Source of the DNA: Eubacterium sp.
GTDB taxonomy: Bacteria > Bacillota > Clostridia > Lachnospirales > Lachnospiraceae
Reading direction: 5' to 3'
DNA length: 38,610 nt
Assembly (NCBI GenBank): GCA_021769425.1
Contig: JAETSX010000032.1
Span: forward strand, 1 to 38,610
Positions 10,806 to 24,793 of the stretch are shown in pieces (the first letter of the stretch is position 1; each line of letters begins with the position of its first letter). The notes under the pieces are model-generated. The model searched no databases, was not told where the DNA came from, and saw nothing but the letters and a program-made list of their open reading frames with translations. Made by a program: the position numbers and the translations under genes.

Positions 10806-11867
10806 TCACTTGCCGCATTCCTTTCCCTGAAGCAGCTTTTCTACCATCCGCCCAACCGTTTCCCGGAAGATCACCGCAAGCGCCAGAGTAATCCCAAAAC
10901 AGAGAATCACATATCCGTACTTCCTGATATCGGATGGTTCCCCAGCCAACAGACAGGGCTTTAAAACAATCATCGGCAGCCTCTGCAGAATATACAGCCC
11001 GAACAAATTCCGGCCCAGCCACTGCAGCGGTCTGCTGTCTATCACAAACTTCATGGTAAATACCACTACCATCCCGGCAAAACTGAACACCCACCACTGG
11101 TATACGGCAAAACGCTCATTTCCTATAAAATACACAGACAGATATCCCGCTGCAAACAGCAGAAGCGTCAGCGCCCAGGTTCCCCAATTCCGGTTCACCA
11201 GCTTCTCTATCCTGGTACGGTGCAGGGAAAACAGCATCCCCCAGAAATAACATAAAGCGGTATTATACCACCAGTCCTCTTTTCCCATCAGACGCAGAAC
11301 GGCAATGTAGGCCAGAGAAAGCAGAAACACTCCAAGCGCCGCCTTTCCATGGCTTTTCTTGCAAATCCGAAAGGAAACATAAGTAAAGAGATACAGCCAT
11401 AAAATGCAGAACACATACCAGTTGCTGTTCCCCACGCTTTCCCAGCCGATAAATACCAACAGCATTTTTTTCAGGCTGTAACGGGCTCCTTCCAGATATC
11501 TGCATGCCAGAAACAAAATCATGGCGCAGTCAAACTGCAGCAGTACCTTGCAAAATCTCTGTCTGGGAATCTGCCTGACATATGCCTGTCCTTTTCGTTT
11601 GATGGATTCCATCACGCCATAGCCGGAATAAAAGAGAAACATCACCACAATGCACTGCCCAATCTGCCGCAGGATCTCATAAGGGCGATCCAGATATGGA
11701 TTGGTAAAATCCGTATAAGTCCAGATATGGGTAAAAAACACCAGCACAAGAAAAAATCCTTTGATGCTGCCTGTCATCTCCATGGACATATAAAACCGCG
11801 CTCCGTCATCCGCCCTCCTAAGCCCCAGGACTGTAAGGAGCATCAGCGCTCCAAAAAATAAAATCAT
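10806..11867 (-). CDS. Acyltransferase-3 family integral membrane protein
   Basis: This 353-aa protein consists of about ten hydrophobic helices and matches the acyltransferase-3 (OafA/OatA-like) membrane fold. An early segment, GFFLVLVFFTHIW, corresponds to the first helix with the family's conserved His, and YSGYGVMESIKRKG follows. Such enzymes move acyl groups onto cell-surface polysaccharides or lipids. The substrate cannot be read. The first residues differ from classic OafA, which starts directly with the His helix. AAGGAG is placed 7 nt before ATG 11867. It stands alone, with no glycan gene cluster around it. Confidence 0.85.
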   Translation of the reverse strand: MILFFGALMLLTVLGLRRADDGARFYMSMEMTGSIKGFFLVLVFFTHIWTYTDFTNPYLDRPYEILRQIGQCIVVMFLFYSGYGVMESIKRKGQAYVRQIPRQRFCKVLLQFDCAMILFLACRYLEGARYSLKKMLLVFIGWESVGNSNWYVFCILWLYLFTYVSFRICKKSHGKAALGVFLLSLAYIAVLRLMGKEDWWYNTALCYFWGMLFSLHRTRIEKLVNRNWGTWALTLLLFAAGYLSVYFIGNERFAVYQWWVFSFAGMVVVFTMKFVIDSRPLQWLGRNLFGLYILQRLPMIVLKPCLLAGEPSDIRKYGYVILCFGITLALAVIFRETVGRMVEKLLQGKECGK

Positions 11868-19073: not shown

Positions 19074-19087
19074 AAAACTTAACTCAA

Positions 19088-19171
19088 TGCGGAAGATGGG
19101 ACTTGAACCCACACGTCTATACAGACACAAGATCCTTAGTCTTGCTCGTCTGCCAGTTCCGACACTTCCGC
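19088..19171 (-). tRNA. tRNA-Leu (AAG), inner copy
   Basis: The 84-nt sequence folds as a class II tRNA with acceptor GCGGAAG/CTTCCGC, anticodon arm CAAGA-CTAAGGA-TCTTG (anticodon AAG) and a long variable arm. From about 19088 to 19145 (the 3' two thirds) it is identical to the copy at 24692. The 5' third differs at several places. I saw no good promoter upstream, unlike the other copy. It probably arrived with an inserted element and forms the junction between the two elements. Confidence 0.93.
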
Positions 19172-19463
19172 ATAAAACCCCAGTAAATCATGAATCCGTC
19201 TTTTTATCACGCAAGATACTTTTCAGTTTCTGCTCGTAAAACTACCCAATTTGGAGAAAGTAGTCTGACGAGTCGCTATTTACTTCTTGACGCTTTTTAT
19301 TATTTCTAATCTTGCGAGAAAAGTAAAGTGGAAAATTAACTTTTAGAGTGAAATTCCGTTTAAAACTTTCAATATAGCACGTTTACATCATATCCTGTAA
19401 GCATTTCCATAATCGCTCATAGTTTTTAAAACGAACCCCCAAATTTAAAAAAATTTTTAAAAT
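19172..19463. other. Gene-free end region of the right element
   Basis: No ORF is supported in this stretch. It contains TCTGACGAG (19264-19272), which recurs inverted at the other end of the element (24573-24581), and CTTGCGAGAAAA (from 19311), which recurs as CTTGCGAGTAAA at 24605. Such shared short words near both ends may be integrase arm-binding sites. The rest is AT-rich. Confidence 0.35.
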
Positions 19464-19502
19464 AACTGCTGACCATTGGAAATCATCTTAATGGCAGCAG
19501 TT
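19464..19502 (-). terminator. Terminator downstream of the SF3-type ATPase gene
   Basis: AACTGCTG(A)CCAT and ATGG(-)CAGCAGTT form a 12-bp stem (19464-19476 with 19491-19502). On the minus strand it is followed by TTATTTTAAAAATTTTTTT. It is 37 nt beyond the stop of the ATPase gene. Confidence 0.75.
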
Positions 19503-19538
19503 GTTTATTTTAAACTCCAAAAGCAGGGCTTGTTTTTC

Positions 19539-20990
19539 CTAATCCGTCCTTTCGAGAGTCAGCCTGATGTATCGGCTATTATTTGGTGTTTTGCTCATTT
19601 CTATAGTAACGCCAGCCTTTTTAAACTCAAATTGCAGTTTATTTATTTCTCTTGACAGATAATTAGGAACAGATGGAATCTTTATATCCGTGTCAGATAA
19701 CGCTACTAATTCATTCAGCTTAATAGAAAAATATTGCATTTTACTTTCCCACTCATAATTATTTCGCTCAAGGAACAACACTACTACTTCGACTAAATCC
19801 GGGTTTTTCTCAAACGGCTTTAACTGGCTGTCCAATAAAGTACCATACCGCTTACAGAAAACTTCTCCTTGACCCGTTTCCCACGCTTCACAAATACAGT
19901 AGCCATAATCATAAAAGGCAGGCATTCGTATATCCCTTCCATACCTATCAGCAATATACGGTTTATAATTCCCCAAAGCTTCTGACAGAAGATTGACTAT
20001 ACCGCCCCAGATAGCCGGACAGTCTTTCTTAAATTCCTCCATTAAAGATACCTTTTCATCAGCAGTGTTTACTCCATTTCCAGGCTTTTCCAAAGTCAAA
20101 ACAATACTTCTGCTAAGCATATCCTCATTCTTAATAACATCATGAATGCCGTTTAAGATAATAGGCTGACAGATATCATAATCTATCGTTTCATTATCCG
20201 TATAGAGTTTCCTGCGTCTTTCCTTGATACCTGTTACATACCCGCAAAGAGTATCACTCGTTGACGAGGATATCGTTGCAAGGTTGTCAATCGCTATCAG
20301 ATAATTTTCCTGGAAAAGCAATACCCATTCACTTTCTTTTCGAGGACACAAATTTGGTCTGTTATCGCCCACAGGGTCAATTAAGGCTTTAATAAATATA
20401 CACATAGTCGTTTTCCCTGAACCCTGTTCTCCATTTATCACAAGACAAGGATGCTCTATATCACTGATAAGTAATGTGAGAAGATAGGCAATAAATACAG
20501 CCCTTTCACTTTCGGGTACTCTGCAATACTTAAAAATCTTGTTTATATCGTTATGGTCTGTATCAGGCAAAGGAATCATACCTTTTTTTGAATGCTTATA
20601 AAAGTGTTTATAGGTTTTAAACCCCATAGAAAAGGGTAATAGCCTATGATTTTTAATAGTAAAATAGACATCTGCCTTATTCGCCGCATCAATCCATATT
20701 TCATGATTTCTGTGTATATAACGATTCGGATTTTTTGTCTTTTCCTGCTGTATTACAAGATCCCCTTGGAAACTGCGGATACAATTTTTAATAGGTGTCG
20801 CTGATATTACCATTCCGCACCGTTTCCGATACTTACTGGTAATGATACTAATGAATTTATCACTGTTGATAGAAACATCTTCTTTTCCATCCGCGGTAGA
20901 AATCGTTACGAGAATACCTAAATCCGTTTTCTTGTAGTAAAAATCATTCTCAATAATATCAAACAGTAACTTATAGTCTGCTTCTGCCAT
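19539..20990 (-). CDS. SF3/P4-primase-like AAA+ ATPase of the mobile element (probable replication helicase)
   Basis: The 483-aa protein has a central ATPase domain with Walker A GEQGSGKTT (residues 187-195), a Walker B-like stretch YLIAIDNLA (about 230-238), a sensor region PIILNGIHDV, and MLSRSIVLTLE with an arginine-finger candidate. This order matches SF3-type helicases at the end of phage/plasmid primases. The N-terminal 180 residues show no primase motif that I can recognise. It probably unwinds the element's origin during replication. AGGAGG lies 9 nt before ATG 20990. It stands alone on its strand and ends in a strong terminator. Confidence 0.78.
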   Translation of the reverse strand: MAEADYKLLFDIIENDFYYKKTDLGILVTISTADGKEDVSINSDKFISIITSKYRKRCGMVISATPIKNCIRSFQGDLVIQQEKTKNPNRYIHRNHEIWIDAANKADVYFTIKNHRLLPFSMGFKTYKHFYKHSKKGMIPLPDTDHNDINKIFKYCRVPESERAVFIAYLLTLLISDIEHPCLVINGEQGSGKTTMCIFIKALIDPVGDNRPNLCPRKESEWVLLFQENYLIAIDNLATISSSTSDTLCGYVTGIKERRRKLYTDNETIDYDICQPIILNGIHDVIKNEDMLSRSIVLTLEKPGNGVNTADEKVSLMEEFKKDCPAIWGGIVNLLSEALGNYKPYIADRYGRDIRMPAFYDYGYCICEAWETGQGEVFCKRYGTLLDSQLKPFEKNPDLVEVVVLFLERNNYEWESKMQYFSIKLNELVALSDTDIKIPSVPNYLSREINKLQFEFKKAGVTIEMSKTPNNSRYIRLTLERTD

Positions 20991-21364
20991 ACTAATAAAC
21001 CTCCTATTGTGGATACTTTAATATGAACCTATGGGAGTTTTATACCTTTACACAAAATCCCATTCTTAAATTTCTTGTACCTATTTTGTTAGGAGGAATG
21101 CGCATTCCGTATTTATTAAATTCATTATAACAGGAAAAAAGCAACATAGCTATTGACAATGTATCTGAAAACAAGCATTTTTCGGCTCTTTCAAAAATTA
21201 GGACAATCGCCCACTCGCTTAGTGACGAGTTTCCTCAATCCTGTCAAAAAAAGTTGCACAAAACATATGTTCTTTAGTGAAGATAAAGAAAATACGGAAA
21301 TAACCACCGTTACCTCCGCATCTCCCAAACCTTTTACTATTACCTTCAACTAACCTATTAGTCT
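20991..21364. promoter_or_regulatory. Regulatory gap upstream of the element ATPase, with a perfect palindrome
   Basis: This 374-nt gap has no gene I believe. It contains GGAATGCGCATTCC (21095-21108), a perfect 14-bp palindrome and a good operator candidate. On the minus strand a TATAAT box (21124-21129) lies just upstream of it, without a clear -35. A hairpin ACTCG/CGAGT occurs near 21215-21232. The 66-codon plus-strand ORF from 21153 has no ribosome binding site and no family resemblance. Confidence 0.45.
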
Positions 21365-22276
21365 TTAATTTTCGCCGTCAGTACCGGAATCTGGAAGTTC
21401 AATATAAGTTCCGTTATATATCCCGTATTGCCCGGAACTCGTAAATTCCAAATCTCCCTTTTCGTTTAGCTTAATAATAATGTGAGAGTTAACATCATCG
21501 TCTGGATAACCTTCATACCCCTCAATCGTTTCACTATAAGACACGGTTACATAGTATTCTTCGTTAATAACACACATTAACGAATTATCCCATGATGTTC
21601 TGAAAGAAATTATAACATCTTCCCCGCTTTCTGTTTCAAAACATTCAAATTGCCGTCCGTCCAGCACGTCTTTTACTTCGTCATCAATTTTCTGATTTTC
21701 TGTCTGTTTTTCTTTTTCGGATAATTCTTTATTATAGATGTATTCTCCGCTGTAATCGATTGCATTAGCTGAATGATTTGTATAGTAAGTAAATAATACA
21801 ATCACTTCATCTATTTTAGGCAAATAGTCTATAATAAAATCAAATCGTCCATATTCCTCAGCATATCTGTATCTTAGGGCATTTCCGTATTCTTCGGTTT
21901 CAATCATCTCTGGAGCGCCTACGGAAAAGCCATAGCCAGGCACTCTTACATAAGTCTTGCCATCTTCTCCATCATAAAAATGAATATAGTGCTGTGGTTT
22001 TTGTATGTCCGTATAATATTTTCCCTGATACCATTTCTCCGAATCCTGACCGCTTACGGTGTTCTGCTCAATGCTTTCTGTAACTTCTTCGTGCTGAACT
22101 TCCGTATCCTCTTCAATCGCAAAGGCATACTCCGGCGATTCGTTTTCCGCTTCAACAGTACTTTCATTATTCCGAACGGTATCATTCTCTCGCTCCGTTT
22201 TTTCACCATTACACGCCGTTAAAAGCATTGTTGAAGAAAGTATCAGCAAACCAATTTTATATTTTCTTTTCATCAT
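21365..22276 (-). CDS. Lipoprotein of unknown function (element cargo)
   Basis: The start is placed at ATG 22276 because AGGAGG lies 7 nt upstream. The product then begins MMKRKYKIGLLILSSTMLLTAC, a lipoprotein signal peptide with lipobox LTAC, so the mature 280-residue protein is anchored outside. The mature part starts with a Glu/Asn-rich linker and has no domain I recognise. It ends with a small beta region (EFTSSGQYGIYNGTYIELP). It sits between the ATPase and the divergently transcribed XRE regulator. It may be cargo, for example for surface exclusion, but no function can be assigned. Confidence 0.8.
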   Translation of the reverse strand: MMKRKYKIGLLILSSTMLLTACNGEKTERENDTVRNNESTVEAENESPEYAFAIEEDTEVQHEEVTESIEQNTVSGQDSEKWYQGKYYTDIQKPQHYIHFYDGEDGKTYVRVPGYGFSVGAPEMIETEEYGNALRYRYAEEYGRFDFIIDYLPKIDEVIVLFTYYTNHSANAIDYSGEYIYNKELSEKEKQTENQKIDDEVKDVLDGRQFECFETESGEDVIISFRTSWDNSLMCVINEEYYVTVSYSETIEGYEGYPDDDVNSHIIIKLNEKGDLEFTSSGQYGIYNGTYIELPDSGTDGEN

Positions 22277-22464
22277 CTTAATGCCTCCTCCTACATTTAT
22301 TCGCCTTATAGACATCTTTTAAAATACGCTTATCAATCACCAATTTTCTCATTCCAGAATACAACTGTAAGCATAGATAATAAAAGCATACCGCATATTC
22401 ATATAAAAAGCAACAGTGAGTATCATTTTCTTTAGCTAATAGTTTTAAGAAAGGAAGTGGTACT

Positions 22465-22827
22465 TTGGATTATAAACTTCTGGGAAAACGGATAAGGGAA
22501 GAACGCCTGCGGCTGGGAAAGACACAGGAGAGTCTGGCGGAAGAAGTCAATATCTCGACCGCCTATCTCGGACAGATAGAACGTGGGGAACGGAGTGTTA
22601 CGCTGGATAAGCTGATACCTCTGGCGAATAAACTGGGAGTAAGCGTGGATTTCTTATTAGCCGAATACCTTACCCCGAATGACGATAATAGCCTTGATTT
22701 GATAAGACAGCTTTTTAGTGATAAAACCGCAGAAGAAAGGGAATTAGCTGTTAATATGGTGAAACTTCTGTTTTCCTATCCCGATAAAGGCTCTCGTGGT
22801 TCCGGGGATAGCGGAGATAGAATTTAG
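22465..22827 (+). CDS. XRE-family transcriptional regulator
   Basis: The 120-aa protein has a Cro/C1-type helix-turn-helix at residues 6-63: LGKRIREERLRLGKTQESLAEEVNISTAYLGQIERGERSVTL. It is followed by a short tail of about 55 residues. It starts at TTG 22465, preceded by AAGGAAG. No ATG fits. It is divergent from the lipoprotein gene and faces the structured RNA module and the integrase. Such regulators commonly keep integrative elements silent, which is a reasonable guess here. Confidence 0.9.
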   Translation: MDYKLLGKRIREERLRLGKTQESLAEEVNISTAYLGQIERGERSVTLDKLIPLANKLGVSVDFLLAEYLTPNDDNSLDLIRQLFSDKTAEERELAVNMVKLLFSYPDKGSRGSGDSGDRI

Positions 22828-22850
22828 AAAATTTCGGAAAATATTTCCTT

Positions 22851-22871
22851 ATGAGGGGCTTCGCCCCTCAT
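22851..22871 (+). terminator. Hairpin after the XRE gene (GC stem with a CTTCG loop)
   Basis: ATGAGGGG pairs with CCCCTCAT across a CTTCG loop. It lies 24 nt after the XRE stop. No T run follows, so it may be a weak terminator or part of the hairpin cluster around the structured module. Confidence 0.5.
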
Positions 22872-22950
22872 AACTACTCGCTTCGCTCGTAGACTTATAA
22901 TTTTAAGTCTTGACTTATCGATAAATCTAGTATAAACTATACGTATAAGA

Positions 22951-23148
22951 CTTGTTAGCAACAGGACTTGGTTCGATTCCAAGTATCGCCACCTTTAAAT
23001 TTTTCATAGATTCTATCGCTTCTGGTGTAATATATGACGCAGTTGTCCAATTTACACGCTCAAAAGAAAGGAATGATTTTATGAAAATGATAATCATTGG
23101 TTTGGGGTGTTGCGGCGATATAGTGTAATGGTAGCATATGTTAATAAG
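22951..23148 (+). ncRNA. Circularly permuted tRNA-like RNA (3' half before 5' half)
   Basis: The 3' half comes first: T-arm CTTGG-TTCGATT-CCAAG (22967-22983), acceptor strand TATCGCC (22984-22990), then A and CC. After a 123-nt interval the 5' half follows: acceptor strand GGCGATA (23114-23120), TA, and a D-arm GTGT-AATGGTA-GCAT (23123-23137) with the conserved GG. The acceptor strands are perfectly complementary over 7 bp. The outer flanks pair as TGTT/AACA (23139-23142 with 22960-22963) and AATAAG/CTTGTT (23143-23148 with 22951-22956), with one 3-nt bulge (AGC). A normal anticodon loop cannot be read, so no amino acid is assigned. Transcription would end at the terminator at 23208-23240. 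It may instead be a relic of an attachment site in a phage-type tRNA. Confidence 0.6.
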
Positions 23149-23160
23149 CATCCCCAAACC
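23099..23160 (+). promoter_or_regulatory. Long-range hairpin enclosing the tRNA 5' half
   Basis: GGTTTGGGG (23099-23107) pairs perfectly with CCCCAAACC (23152-23160). The 44-nt loop contains the tRNA-like 5' half. Because the acceptor stem pairs across this hairpin, the two folds form either a pseudoknot or two alternative states. Confidence 0.65.
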
Positions 23161-23207
23161 GCCAAAAATAATGAGAGCATATAGAGGTTCTCTTAATAAT
23201 AATCTTG

Positions 23208-23245
23208 AATCCGCAATGAGTATAGTTTTACTTGCGGATTTTTTT
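23208..23245 (+). terminator. Intrinsic terminator of the permuted tRNA-like transcript
   Basis: AATCCGCAA (23208-23216) pairs perfectly with TTGCGGATT (23232-23240) and is followed by TTTTTATTT. It is the only classic terminator for a plus-strand transcript in this region, and no protein gene precedes it after the XRE gene. A separate RNA is therefore likely transcribed. Confidence 0.85.
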
Positions 23246-23249
23246 ATTT

Positions 23250-23357
23250 AAGAATTATACACAGACGGAGCGAAGCGACGTCTTTGCGAAGCAAAGGCTA
23301 TTTCTAAAGATTCTAAAATTTAAAAAGTTTTCGTTTTTTATCTCCGGTATCACCGCT
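23250..23357 (-). other. Small-hairpin cluster beyond the integrase operon
   Basis: Two short hairpins with GCGAAGC-type loops lie at about 23262-23300 (GACGgaGCGAAGCgaCGTC and CTTTGCGAAGCAAAG). They mirror the pair left of the structured module (22851-22890). They may end the integrase transcript on the minus strand or belong to a single-strand origin. No gene is seen here. Confidence 0.4.
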
Positions 23358-23582
23358 TTACATCAAGTCCAACAGAAACCGGATTCCTTCAGTAAAACCA
23401 CGGTAGAACCATTCTTTCTCCAGATTCCGGTAAAACTCGTTTAGTTCTTCCTCAATCGACAGATAATCTTCCCTAAGTATCACAGCGGCTAGCCTGCGGT
23501 ATATCCGTTTTTCTGCCAGTTCTTCAATCGTCCGTTCCCACGGTTTATTATGATAAATCGAATCCGTTATGTATCTTTCCAT
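23358..23582 (-). CDS. Small conserved element protein, DUF6809-like
   Basis: The 74-residue product (ATG 23582, AAGGCGG upstream) starts MERYITDSIYHNKPWER and ends FYRGFTEGIRFLLDLM. This pattern, an N-terminal (Y/H)NxPWER motif and a C-terminal FxxGFxxGxRFLL helix, is typical of a small helical family found in Clostridial phages and integrative elements. It begins 15 nt after the integrase stop, so it is co-transcribed with it. The function is unknown. An excisionase role is possible but there is no clear DNA-binding motif. Confidence 0.7.
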   Translation of the reverse strand: MERYITDSIYHNKPWERTIEELAEKRIYRRLAAVILREDYLSIEEELNEFYRNLEKEWFYRGFTEGIRFLLDLM

Positions 23583-23597
23583 ACTTCCCACCGCCTT

Positions 23598-24551
23598 TTA
23601 TTTAGACATAGCAATCTTTTTACAGCCATTTGAGGAAACGGTACGGTCTAGGGGATTGAACTTATCAAAATCTACAGATAAATCATTGCCGAACATCTGT
23701 ACATATTCCTTTACTACGGATAAATCGCTATGCCCCAGTATCTTTTGAAGCCGGAATATATCCCCACCGTTCAATATCCACTTTTTAGCGAATGTATGAC
23801 GGTAAAGGTGGGCTGAGGTCTTTTCTACACCCTTACTGCGGTTATATGCCGCTAACATATCCTGATAGGTGCGTATATCCCCTTTGTTTCCGTATGTATT
23901 ACAGAATACATAGTCCTCCGCTTCGCCCTTTCGGTATTTGAGATATTCCCTCATGATATTTGCCAGTGTTTGAGAAAGCGGTATAATTTGGGCGGTGCGG
24001 TTTTTCGTGTGATTGAGTGCGATCATACTGTTATCAAAATCTATGTCCTCTATTTTAAGGTTGAGAGCGGTGGAAATACGGTTTCCAGTGCCTAAAAGAT
24101 AATTGGAAAATACCCAGACCTTATATTCCGAAAATCCACAGGTTTTTAGGTTGGGCTTTTTCAAAAGCACATTCAGTTCCGCATCGGTGTATGTTTCCTT
24201 GAGTTTCTTATCTACTTTTGGAATACGGATTTTAAAAGCAGTCATATAGTCCATTTCCATACAGTAATAAAGAAAAGCCCGAAGCCCTCTGAGGTAAGTA
24301 TTAACCGTTACATCATTACAGACATGCTTATCAGAACGCAACTCCAATATAAAGCTGTTTACGGTAGCAAGAGTAACATCAGAAATAAGGTATGTTTCAT
24401 CATCTAAGAAACGGTGGAATACGTTAAATTGATACTGATAAAGCTTAATTGTTTCCCCAGACAGATTTTTAATCCGACAATGTCCTTTGAAGTCCTCAAA
24501 CGCTTCGTCCACGGTTAAGTTGTCTGAGTTTTTGAGAGATAATTTTTTCAT
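23598..24551 (-). CDS. int: Tyrosine recombinase / integrase (tRNA-Leu-specific)
   Basis: The 317-aa protein has an N-terminal SAM-like core-binding domain (residues 10-100) and a C-terminal catalytic domain with the expected residues: Arg in GTGNRISTALNL (about 157), the Lys region NHTKNR, the HLYRHTF box (about 247), LGHSDLS (about 268) and the nucleophile Tyr in VKEYVQMF. It is complete, with AAAGGAG before ATG 24551. It lies 140 nt from the tRNA-Leu 3' end at 24692, the standard arrangement for an enzyme integrating at a tRNA 3' end. It precedes the DUF6809-like gene in the same operon. Confidence 0.95.
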   Translation of the reverse strand: MKKLSLKNSDNLTVDEAFEDFKGHCRIKNLSGETIKLYQYQFNVFHRFLDDETYLISDVTLATVNSFILELRSDKHVCNDVTVNTYLRGLRAFLYYCMEMDYMTAFKIRIPKVDKKLKETYTDAELNVLLKKPNLKTCGFSEYKVWVFSNYLLGTGNRISTALNLKIEDIDFDNSMIALNHTKNRTAQIIPLSQTLANIMREYLKYRKGEAEDYVFCNTYGNKGDIRTYQDMLAAYNRSKGVEKTSAHLYRHTFAKKWILNGGDIFRLQKILGHSDLSVVKEYVQMFGNDLSVDFDKFNPLDRTVSSNGCKKIAMSK

Positions 24552-24650
24552 GAGAATGCTCCTTTTCTTATGCTCGTCAGATGCTCAGAAAACTTCAAGA
24601 CAGTCTTGCGAGTAAAAAAGGAGTACATCGTAAAATTAAAATAAAAAATG

Positions 24651-24675
24651 CCCTGTAAATCCAAGATTTACAAGG
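24651..24675 (-). terminator. Terminator of tRNA-Leu (outer copy)
   Basis: An 11-bp stem (24651-24661 with 24665-24675, one wobble) lies 17 nt after the tRNA 3' end. On the minus strand it is followed by GCATTTTTTATTTT. Confidence 0.8.
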
Positions 24676-24691
24676 CTTCCCAAGGGTTAAA

Positions 24692-24775
24692 TGCGGAAGA
24701 TGGGACTTGAACCCACACGTCTATACAGACACAAGATCCTTAGTCTTGCCTGTCTGCCAATTCCAGCACTTCCGC
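24692..24775 (-). tRNA. tRNA-Leu (AAG), outer copy
   Basis: This 84-nt class II tRNA has acceptor GCGGAAG/CTTCCGC, D-loop with TTGG, anticodon arm CAAGA-CTAAGGA-TCTTG (anticodon AAG), a long variable arm and T-loop TTCAAGT. It has its own consensus promoter and is taken as the functional chromosomal gene whose 3' end is the integration site. CCA is not encoded. Confidence 0.97.
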
Positions 24776-24793
24776 ATTTCTGACGACCTGTAA

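Follow-up and report, generated by a model that had tools for sequence, protein, structure and literature searches.

The tRNA-like unit within an integrated element of Eubacterium sp. is a putative stand-alone small RNA gene that occurs mostly on mobile elements of gut-type bacteria, and its RNA almost certainly represents a real, structured and covarying family. Comparison of ten intact copies shows that a tRNA-like core in circularly permuted order can be formed by pairing between the two RNA ends, and that the acceptor loop holds a putative Shine-Dalgarno sequence and an ATG-initiated ORF of 15-20 codons, preceded by an in-frame, codon-conserved stretch. Our tentative reading is that the unit serves as a tRNA-shaped, cis-regulatory end lock on the mRNA of a small hydrophobic peptide of mobile elements. 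The covarying family had no Rfam 15 match above gathering in the scans done, and no published account of it was found in the partly accessible literature searched, and one may exist elsewhere.

The window is the whole stretch of DNA that was analysed, 38,610 nucleotides of contig JAETSX010000032.1. Its relevant features are as follows.

19086..24777, no strand: integrated element whose ends are 88-nt direct repeats with two tRNA-Leu(aag) genes (repeats 94% identical, 5604-bp spacing)
22465..22827, + strand: XRE-type helix-turn-helix regulator gene (PF01381, E 1e-15)
22910..22938, + strand: promoter-like TTGACT, 17 nt, TAAACT, with an alternative TATAAA at 22931-22936 (9/12 matches, weak alone)
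22954..22965, + strand: conserved 5ʹ segment GTTAGCAACAGG, its end a variable-loop-like AGG (alignment A6)
22967..22983, + strand: T-arm CTTGG-TTCGATT-CCAAG, stem 22967-22971/22979-22983, read from the sequence
22984..22991, + strand: acceptor 3ʹ strand TATCGCC (22984-22990) and a discriminator-like A; can pair with 23114-23120 in 10/10
22994..23080, + strand: codon-conserved in-frame stretch 5ʹ of the ATG, with an S-G-x-x-Y-D motif and no recognisable start codon
23062..23072, + strand: Shine-Dalgarno-like AAAAGAAAGGA before the ATG (L020 counterpart GAAAGGAGG)
23081..23128, + strand: small ORF MKMIIIGLGCCGDIV, its stop TAA lying across the junction of D-stem 5ʹ strand and D-loop
23099..23107, + strand: conserved outer helix, 5ʹ strand GGTTTGGGG, from homologue comparison
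23114..23120, + strand: acceptor 5ʹ strand GGCGATA, then a 2-nt spacer TA, from the pair count
23123..23137, + strand: D-arm GTGT-AATGGTA-GCAT, 4-bp stem and 7-nt loop; pairing possible in 10/10, nearly invariant
23138..23151, + strand: anticodon-arm-like hairpin, stem and loop variable among homologues
23152..23160, + strand: conserved outer helix, 3ʹ strand CCCCAAACC
23208..23247, + strand: terminator-like hairpin AATCCGCAA...TTGCGGATT, then a T-run, read from the sequence
23598..24551, - strand: tyrosine integrase of the element (PF00589, E 1.5e-28)

The unit is placed between the XRE regulator gene and the tyrosine integrase gene. From 22967 to 23137 on the + strand it runs T-arm, acceptor 3ʹ strand, a loop of about 120 nt, acceptor 5ʹ strand and D-arm, and in the ten copies the acceptor strands are separated by about 110-120 nt, including the ORF, which is 15-20 residues long across the ten sequences. 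A descriptor of this permuted layout, composed after the site had been seen, matched once in the window and twice in total across 60 dinucleotide-shuffled windows, both strands being searched. In scans of the window, the unit was not called by ARAGORN and no Rfam family reached its gathering score over it. The scan of this region did not list the hairpin at 23208-23247, whose 15-nt loop exceeds the length that the scan allows. Two further proteins of the element, without a Pfam or PADLOC match, were characterised by eye: a 483-aa protein with a GEQGSGKTT P-loop (19539-20990) and a lipoprotein-like 316-aa protein with an LTACN motif (21365-22315).

Besides the window, nine more intact copies were found, and the ten sequences compared were the window, L010, L011, L012, L013, L014, L016, L018, L020 and L022, among which L010 and L013 are mutually close. 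A 23-base pattern of the acceptor and D-arm gave six stretches in 84,980 species genomes, one of them a decayed copy and five intact. The covariance model R1, built on the 3ʹ part, gave matches in 6 of 397 genomes of the family, of which three were new and the others were the window, the decayed copy and a copy known already, and in 4 of 392 order genomes, with one additional new copy, the family and order samples overlapping. After rebuilding, model R2 found 2 of 391 class genomes, namely the window and the decayed copy. The few genomes matched by the pattern, R1 and R2 indicate that the unit is rare. The carrier contigs are named as Anaerostipes, as Lachnospiraceae (three) and, for L011, only as Eubacteriales; the other carriers are in the family of the window, Lachnospiraceae.

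The first genome matching had returned eight genomes, comprising the window, the decayed L002 and six (L003-L008) with other sequence; these six were dropped as homologues, as only the Shine-Dalgarno/ATG stretch matches. Several entries are duplicates (L015 of L012; L028-L031 of L013, L010, L011 and L014; L017 and L001 of the window), and L036, L038 and L040 are HetE-N matches at units counted already. No homologues were obtained from the DNA search of phages and plasmids, from the window peptide against plasmids, from the L012 peptide against phages or from strict patterns in viral contigs; the protein alignment search of viral contigs yielded 37 stretches, none of which was confirmed. L021, the sole gapped-pattern match in viral contigs, was a phage tRNA array and was dropped as false. 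The decayed copy (L002/L009/L019, on a Hominisplanchenecus faecis contig) keeps the ATG ORF, the acceptor 5ʹ strand and the D-arm, but lacks the T-arm and some of the outer 3ʹ strand, so that the outer helix is broken; it was excluded from every pair count.

On alignment A6, a sequence alignment that was not structure-fitted, the T-stem, acceptor and D-stem of the ten sequences were paired in 160 of 160 cells, and the lengths of 7 bp for the acceptor, 5 bp for the T-stem and 4 bp for the D-stem, canonical for tRNA, were found in 10/10. When the partners were shifted by 1-3 columns as a control, 24-54% of the cells paired. Two-sided changes occurred in 6 of 16 pairs (1 of 500 shuffles was as high) and in 12 cells (0 of 500), and the covariation score of the T, acceptor and D helices was reached by none of the 500 shuffles, in statistics that ignore the relatedness of the sequences; the number of additional pair types, nine, was not above the shuffled mean of 10.3. 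The two-sided changes fell in 2 of 5 T-stem pairs, 4 of 7 acceptor pairs and none of the 4 D-stem pairs, and the D-stem is thus conserved rather than tested, because it hardly varies. One copy carries the acceptor GATGGTG/CACCATC in place of GGCGATA/TATCGCC. The sequence-only reading had described the permuted T-arm, acceptor and D-arm on the + strand, as a permuted tRNA-like RNA within an integrated element, and had named acceptor strands that do not co-vary as the result that would overturn it. The arms are present in the window, the same fold recurs with covariation in nine other loci, and the acceptor pairs with a two-sided change in at least one homologue bear that description out. The compensatory changes in these nine loci therefore point to a conserved RNA, neither chance nor an integration scar.

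A second helix, formed by 23099-23107 and 23152-23160, has 8-11 bp in all ten sequences (GGTTTGGGG/CCCCAAACC in the window, AGCTGGCTATG/CATAGCCAGCT in L020). Four of its 8 aligned pairs show a two-sided change in at least one sequence, and 5 of the 8 aligned pairs have one or two cells broken or gapped. As the outer 5ʹ strand lies between both acceptor strands, the outer helix and the acceptor would together make a pseudoknot if both form at once; they might instead be alternatives. The linkers of 6-9 nt look long enough for a pseudoknot. In the minimum-energy fold of the window RNA, with pseudoknots disallowed, the T-arm, three of the four D-stem pairs and the outer helix are present; the acceptor is absent from this nested fold, four of its 5ʹ bases pairing with the small hairpin region instead. 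The z-score of the fold was -1.34, mildly better than shuffles. The hairpin that follows the D-arm was predicted locally in 9/10, with stems of 5-7 bp, loops of 4-8 nt and differing sequence, and none was predicted in L020; the one at 23138-23151 is absent from the full-length minimum-energy fold of the window.

A different outer helix had been proposed before, of 10 bp between 22951-22960 and 23139-23148 and likened to a splice-type motif. It exists in the window but is not conserved, since the longest pairing in the matching segments of the nine others is 4, 4, 6, 4, 8, 6, 8, 6 and 6 nt with G-U allowed. Because the 10-bp helix is specific to the window, there is no conserved splice-like helix, and that likeness finds no support. 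The small ORF in the loop and the conserved, potentially pseudoknotted outer helix are additions to what had been noted.

The reading frame from the 5ʹ segment to the TAA in the D-arm contains no stop in 10/10, versus 4-10 and 1-5 stops in the other frames, and its lengths of 174-189 are all multiples of three. In all ten sequences, the final 15-20 codons begin with an ATG that has a purine run containing GGA 4-12 nt before it, and the last codons and the stop of this small ORF lie within the acceptor 5ʹ strand and the D-arm. Between the acceptor 3ʹ strand and the ATG, S-G-x-x-Y-D is kept in 10/10 with synonymous changes. The pN/pS values, calculated from proportions in nine sequences with L013 left out, were 0.39 between the ATG and the acceptor, 0.67 in the upstream stretch, where constraint is weak, and 1.51 in the T-arm segment, which for this reason looks constrained as RNA rather than as codons. 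Upon inspection by eye of the ten sequences, no common start codon was seen upstream of the ATG among ATG/GTG/TTG and ATA/ATT. A TAG directly precedes the first codon in L014 and L020, and codon 15 is ATG in L016, TTG in L022 and neither in the other eight. The absent start codon is a testable puzzle on how translation begins.

A promoter-like pair with at least 9/12 matches ends 15-21 nt upstream of codon 1 in 7/10, a count made with no shuffled control, and the pair is weaker or farther away in L016, L020 and L022. If real, promoters so close would leave almost no leader. Promoter-like sites in three regions, that of the window first, numbered 3, 4 and 2, against shuffled means of 1.9, 1.7 and 2.4, and were thus about as frequent as in shuffles, with no clear excess. 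Systematic sequestration of the Shine-Dalgarno sequence was considered and rejected, as its predicted accessibility was not consistently below average. The peptide segments are hydrophobic; the window peptide matched no PHROGs or NCBIfam family and had one Pfam match, at E 0.11.

The majority of the copies are within or close to mobile elements; where no family match is given, the neighbouring genes of the homologues were identified by eye in ORF lists. A near-identical XRE-type gene adjoins the unit in L010, L011, L013 and L022, and the units of L010, L011 and L013 come directly after tuf. Integrase, relaxase and primase-like genes stand alongside the unit in L010, L013 and L022. In L016, smpB (by eye), a tmRNA and tRNA-Pro lie upstream of the unit, and an integrase follows about 5 kb away. 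In L018 (L024 9518-9962), the unit is about 145 bp from a tRNA-Leu(aag), the type of gene that bounds the element of the window; no integrase was recognised nearby, and a 12-base tRNA 3ʹ-end word had no second exact copy in the 20 kb examined. In L020 (L025; unit 11403-11626), the unit sits between an AAA ATPase gene group and a Gabija pair (L025 12011-16170; GajA E 8.1e-200, GajB E 2.6e-241) that begins about 385 bp downstream. Further upstream in L025, there is an AAA ATPase gene with HEC-01/AriA/AbiLi-type PADLOC matches. The L012 contig has a relaxase-like gene, and L014 is near a serine-recombinase-like gene. Beside the L012 unit, there is a 633-aa protein (L012 236-2137) with the look of an HSP90-type ATPase by eye and no PADLOC match.

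Under the end-lock reading, the 5ʹ end would give the T-arm and acceptor 3ʹ strand, and the 3ʹ end the acceptor 5ʹ strand, the D-arm and the anticodon-arm-like hairpin, with the second helix crossing the acceptor, its strands lying immediately upstream of the acceptor 5ʹ strand and immediately downstream of the hairpin. Because the last codons and the stop lie inside the tRNA-like fold, translation and folding would exclude or tune each other. We speculate that the tRNA shape is a switch working in cis on the small hydrophobic peptide, that it may be read by the ribosome or by tRNA-processing or tRNA-modifying enzymes, and that the peptide may serve element maintenance or host defence; a cut by RNase P before GGCGATA would take away the stop codon. 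The nearest working precedent, by analogy, is the yjdF riboswitch, a tRNA-like fold in bacterial mRNA with a D-loop/T-loop contact and cis control over translation; in vitro, translation rose 2- to 6.3-fold when tRNAs were put in cis ahead of a Shine-Dalgarno sequence (PMC9142559). For the unit, cis control of this kind is a prediction. In contrast to yjdF, which is a leader in normal tRNA order, the unit would fold from both RNA ends, in permuted order and with the stop codon inside. No yjdF match was listed in the Rfam scans of the window. If the reading is right, the two ends of a small mRNA would be able to make a permuted tRNA-like core with a pseudoknot, a compact natural example of a coding sequence and a tRNA fold on the same nucleotides.

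The unit might instead be a tRNA-mimic scaffold RNA in the style of YrlA (RF02553), whose permuted module binds a protein and in which the ORF in the acceptor loop is secondary; we consider this unlikely. Like permuted tRNA and YrlA, the unit has its T-arm and acceptor 3ʹ strand ahead of the acceptor 5ʹ strand and D-arm, and PMC8394870 describes YrlA as a mimic of tRNA that has D, T and acceptor arms as well as an end-to-end stem. In L016 (606-665), the YrlA model matched the junction of the tmRNA 3ʹ end and the tRNA-Pro 5ʹ end with 32.3 bits (gathering 69), an informative false positive, because such a match indicates that YrlA has the T-arm before the D-arm. A permuted tRNA mimic in bacteria thus has a precedent in the arm order of this Y RNA model. 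At the unit itself, no YrlA match was obtained in the window or L010-L014 (E up to 5), nor in L016, L018, L020 and L022 (E up to 1). The Ro60/TROVE protein (PF05731) was found in 0 of 10 carrier genomes, of which completeness is known for 6, with a positive control genome, and a Ro60-bound Y RNA was accordingly rejected. The YrlA acceptor is closed by a short loop. The unit has about 110-120 nt and an ORF between its acceptor strands, an extra hairpin after the D-arm and an outer helix that crosses the acceptor, and conserved codons, a Shine-Dalgarno sequence and an ATG would be unexpected in the loop of a pure scaffold. The unit would extend bacterial permuted tRNA mimicry past Ro60-bound Y RNAs, to mobile elements.

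We also regard as improbable, to a like degree, that the RNA is the mRNA of a small toxin or abortive-infection peptide with a lock between its 5ʹ and 3ʹ ends, of the type I toxin-antitoxin kind, in which the tRNA shape would be a locking device. The hydrophobic peptide segments and the placement on mobile elements, in L020 385 bp before the Gabija pair, are consistent with such a role. So is a weak resemblance between the stretch before the ATG and two models, HetE-N and antiphage GapS6a, with matches in 8/10 and 5/10 members at E up to 1, covering the first 32 positions of the models, and best E values of 0.0002 and 0.0011. All these matches are below the curated cut-offs (best 22.1 bits versus 25, and 19.2 versus 90), so that membership of either family is not indicated. 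The upstream stretch of the window itself showed no similarity to either model at E up to 1, and the HetE-N search of the 10 carriers gave a match at the unit in 3, also below the curated cut-off. We take the weak resemblance as a lead only; a literature search on GAPS6 found nothing useful. Against a toxin, neither an antisense RNA nor a protein antitoxin was identified.

It is very unlikely that the unit is a genuine pre-tRNA in permuted form, or a two-piece tmRNA, that RNase P and RNase Z would mature. Such an RNA would explain the canonical helix lengths in 10/10, and the window weakly matches Rfam tmRNA_permuted (17.3 bits versus gathering 47, E 0.22); no Rfam tmRNA model matched at the unit in the nine other copies. 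According to PMC3985003, the permuted two-piece tmRNA likewise joins a permuted tRNA-like domain and a short reading frame, and a G-U at the third acceptor pair is the criterion for tmRNA. In the unit, this pair is C-G in 7/10 and U-A in 3/10 and never G-U (0/10), on which a tmRNA was rejected; unlike in permuted tmRNA, the D-stem is regular and the frame lies between the acceptor strands with its own Shine-Dalgarno sequence and ATG. Permuted tRNA genes of algae and Thermofilum pendens share the placement of the 3ʹ half before the 5ʹ half (PMC3978253), but the unit has a bacterial host and a long, ORF-bearing intervening sequence, and no conserved terminal helix or anticodon arm was found. In the ten sequences, there was no anticodon arm with a 7-nt loop and a usable anticodon, and no bulge-helix-bulge at the termini, as judged by the non-conserved terminal helix alone. 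The hairpin after the D-arm differs among copies in both stem and loop, which speaks against a tRNA gene proper; no conserved CCA follows the acceptor 3ʹ strand, and as the acceptor sequence varies, no aminoacylation identity is evident. RtcB occurs in only 4/10 carriers, which counts against a pre-tRNA and led us to reject RtcB-dependent circularisation. An NCCA end encoded directly behind the outer helix was also rejected, being present in 7/10 and missing in L016, L018 and L020. The unit thus looks like a tRNA mimic, yet falls outside tRNA, tmRNA and Ro60-bound Y RNA on the features tested.

There is only a slim chance that the conserved frame right after the acceptor strand is translated with no start codon, the permuted, pseudoknotted fold positioning the ribosome directly. 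The unit would then be a bacterial counterpart of the viral tRNA-like internal entry sites, and would encode a membrane peptide of about 45 residues, with the ordinary ATG giving rise to its C-terminal part as well.

A chance arrangement or a scar left by integration into a tRNA gene, suggested by the position inside an element bounded by tRNA-Leu repeats and by the decayed copy without a T-arm (L002/L009), is hardly credible and in our view refuted by the compensatory changes in the T and acceptor stems, the same unit also occurring at unrelated sites and its T-arm and acceptor being unlike those of the tRNA-Leu at the element ends. The sequence-only reading had offered a relic of an attachment site as a simpler account, with recombination between ATAAG words at the outer ends. 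Such a relic does not fit the covarying copies of the structure after tuf, close to tRNA-Leu, close to tRNA-Pro and next to Gabija genes. Recombination at ATAAG is not supported either, the word standing at the left end in 3/10, at the right end in 6/10 and at both in only 2/10 (the window and L011). The window opens with a minus-strand 16S rRNA gene, whose 5ʹ end occupies positions 1-202.
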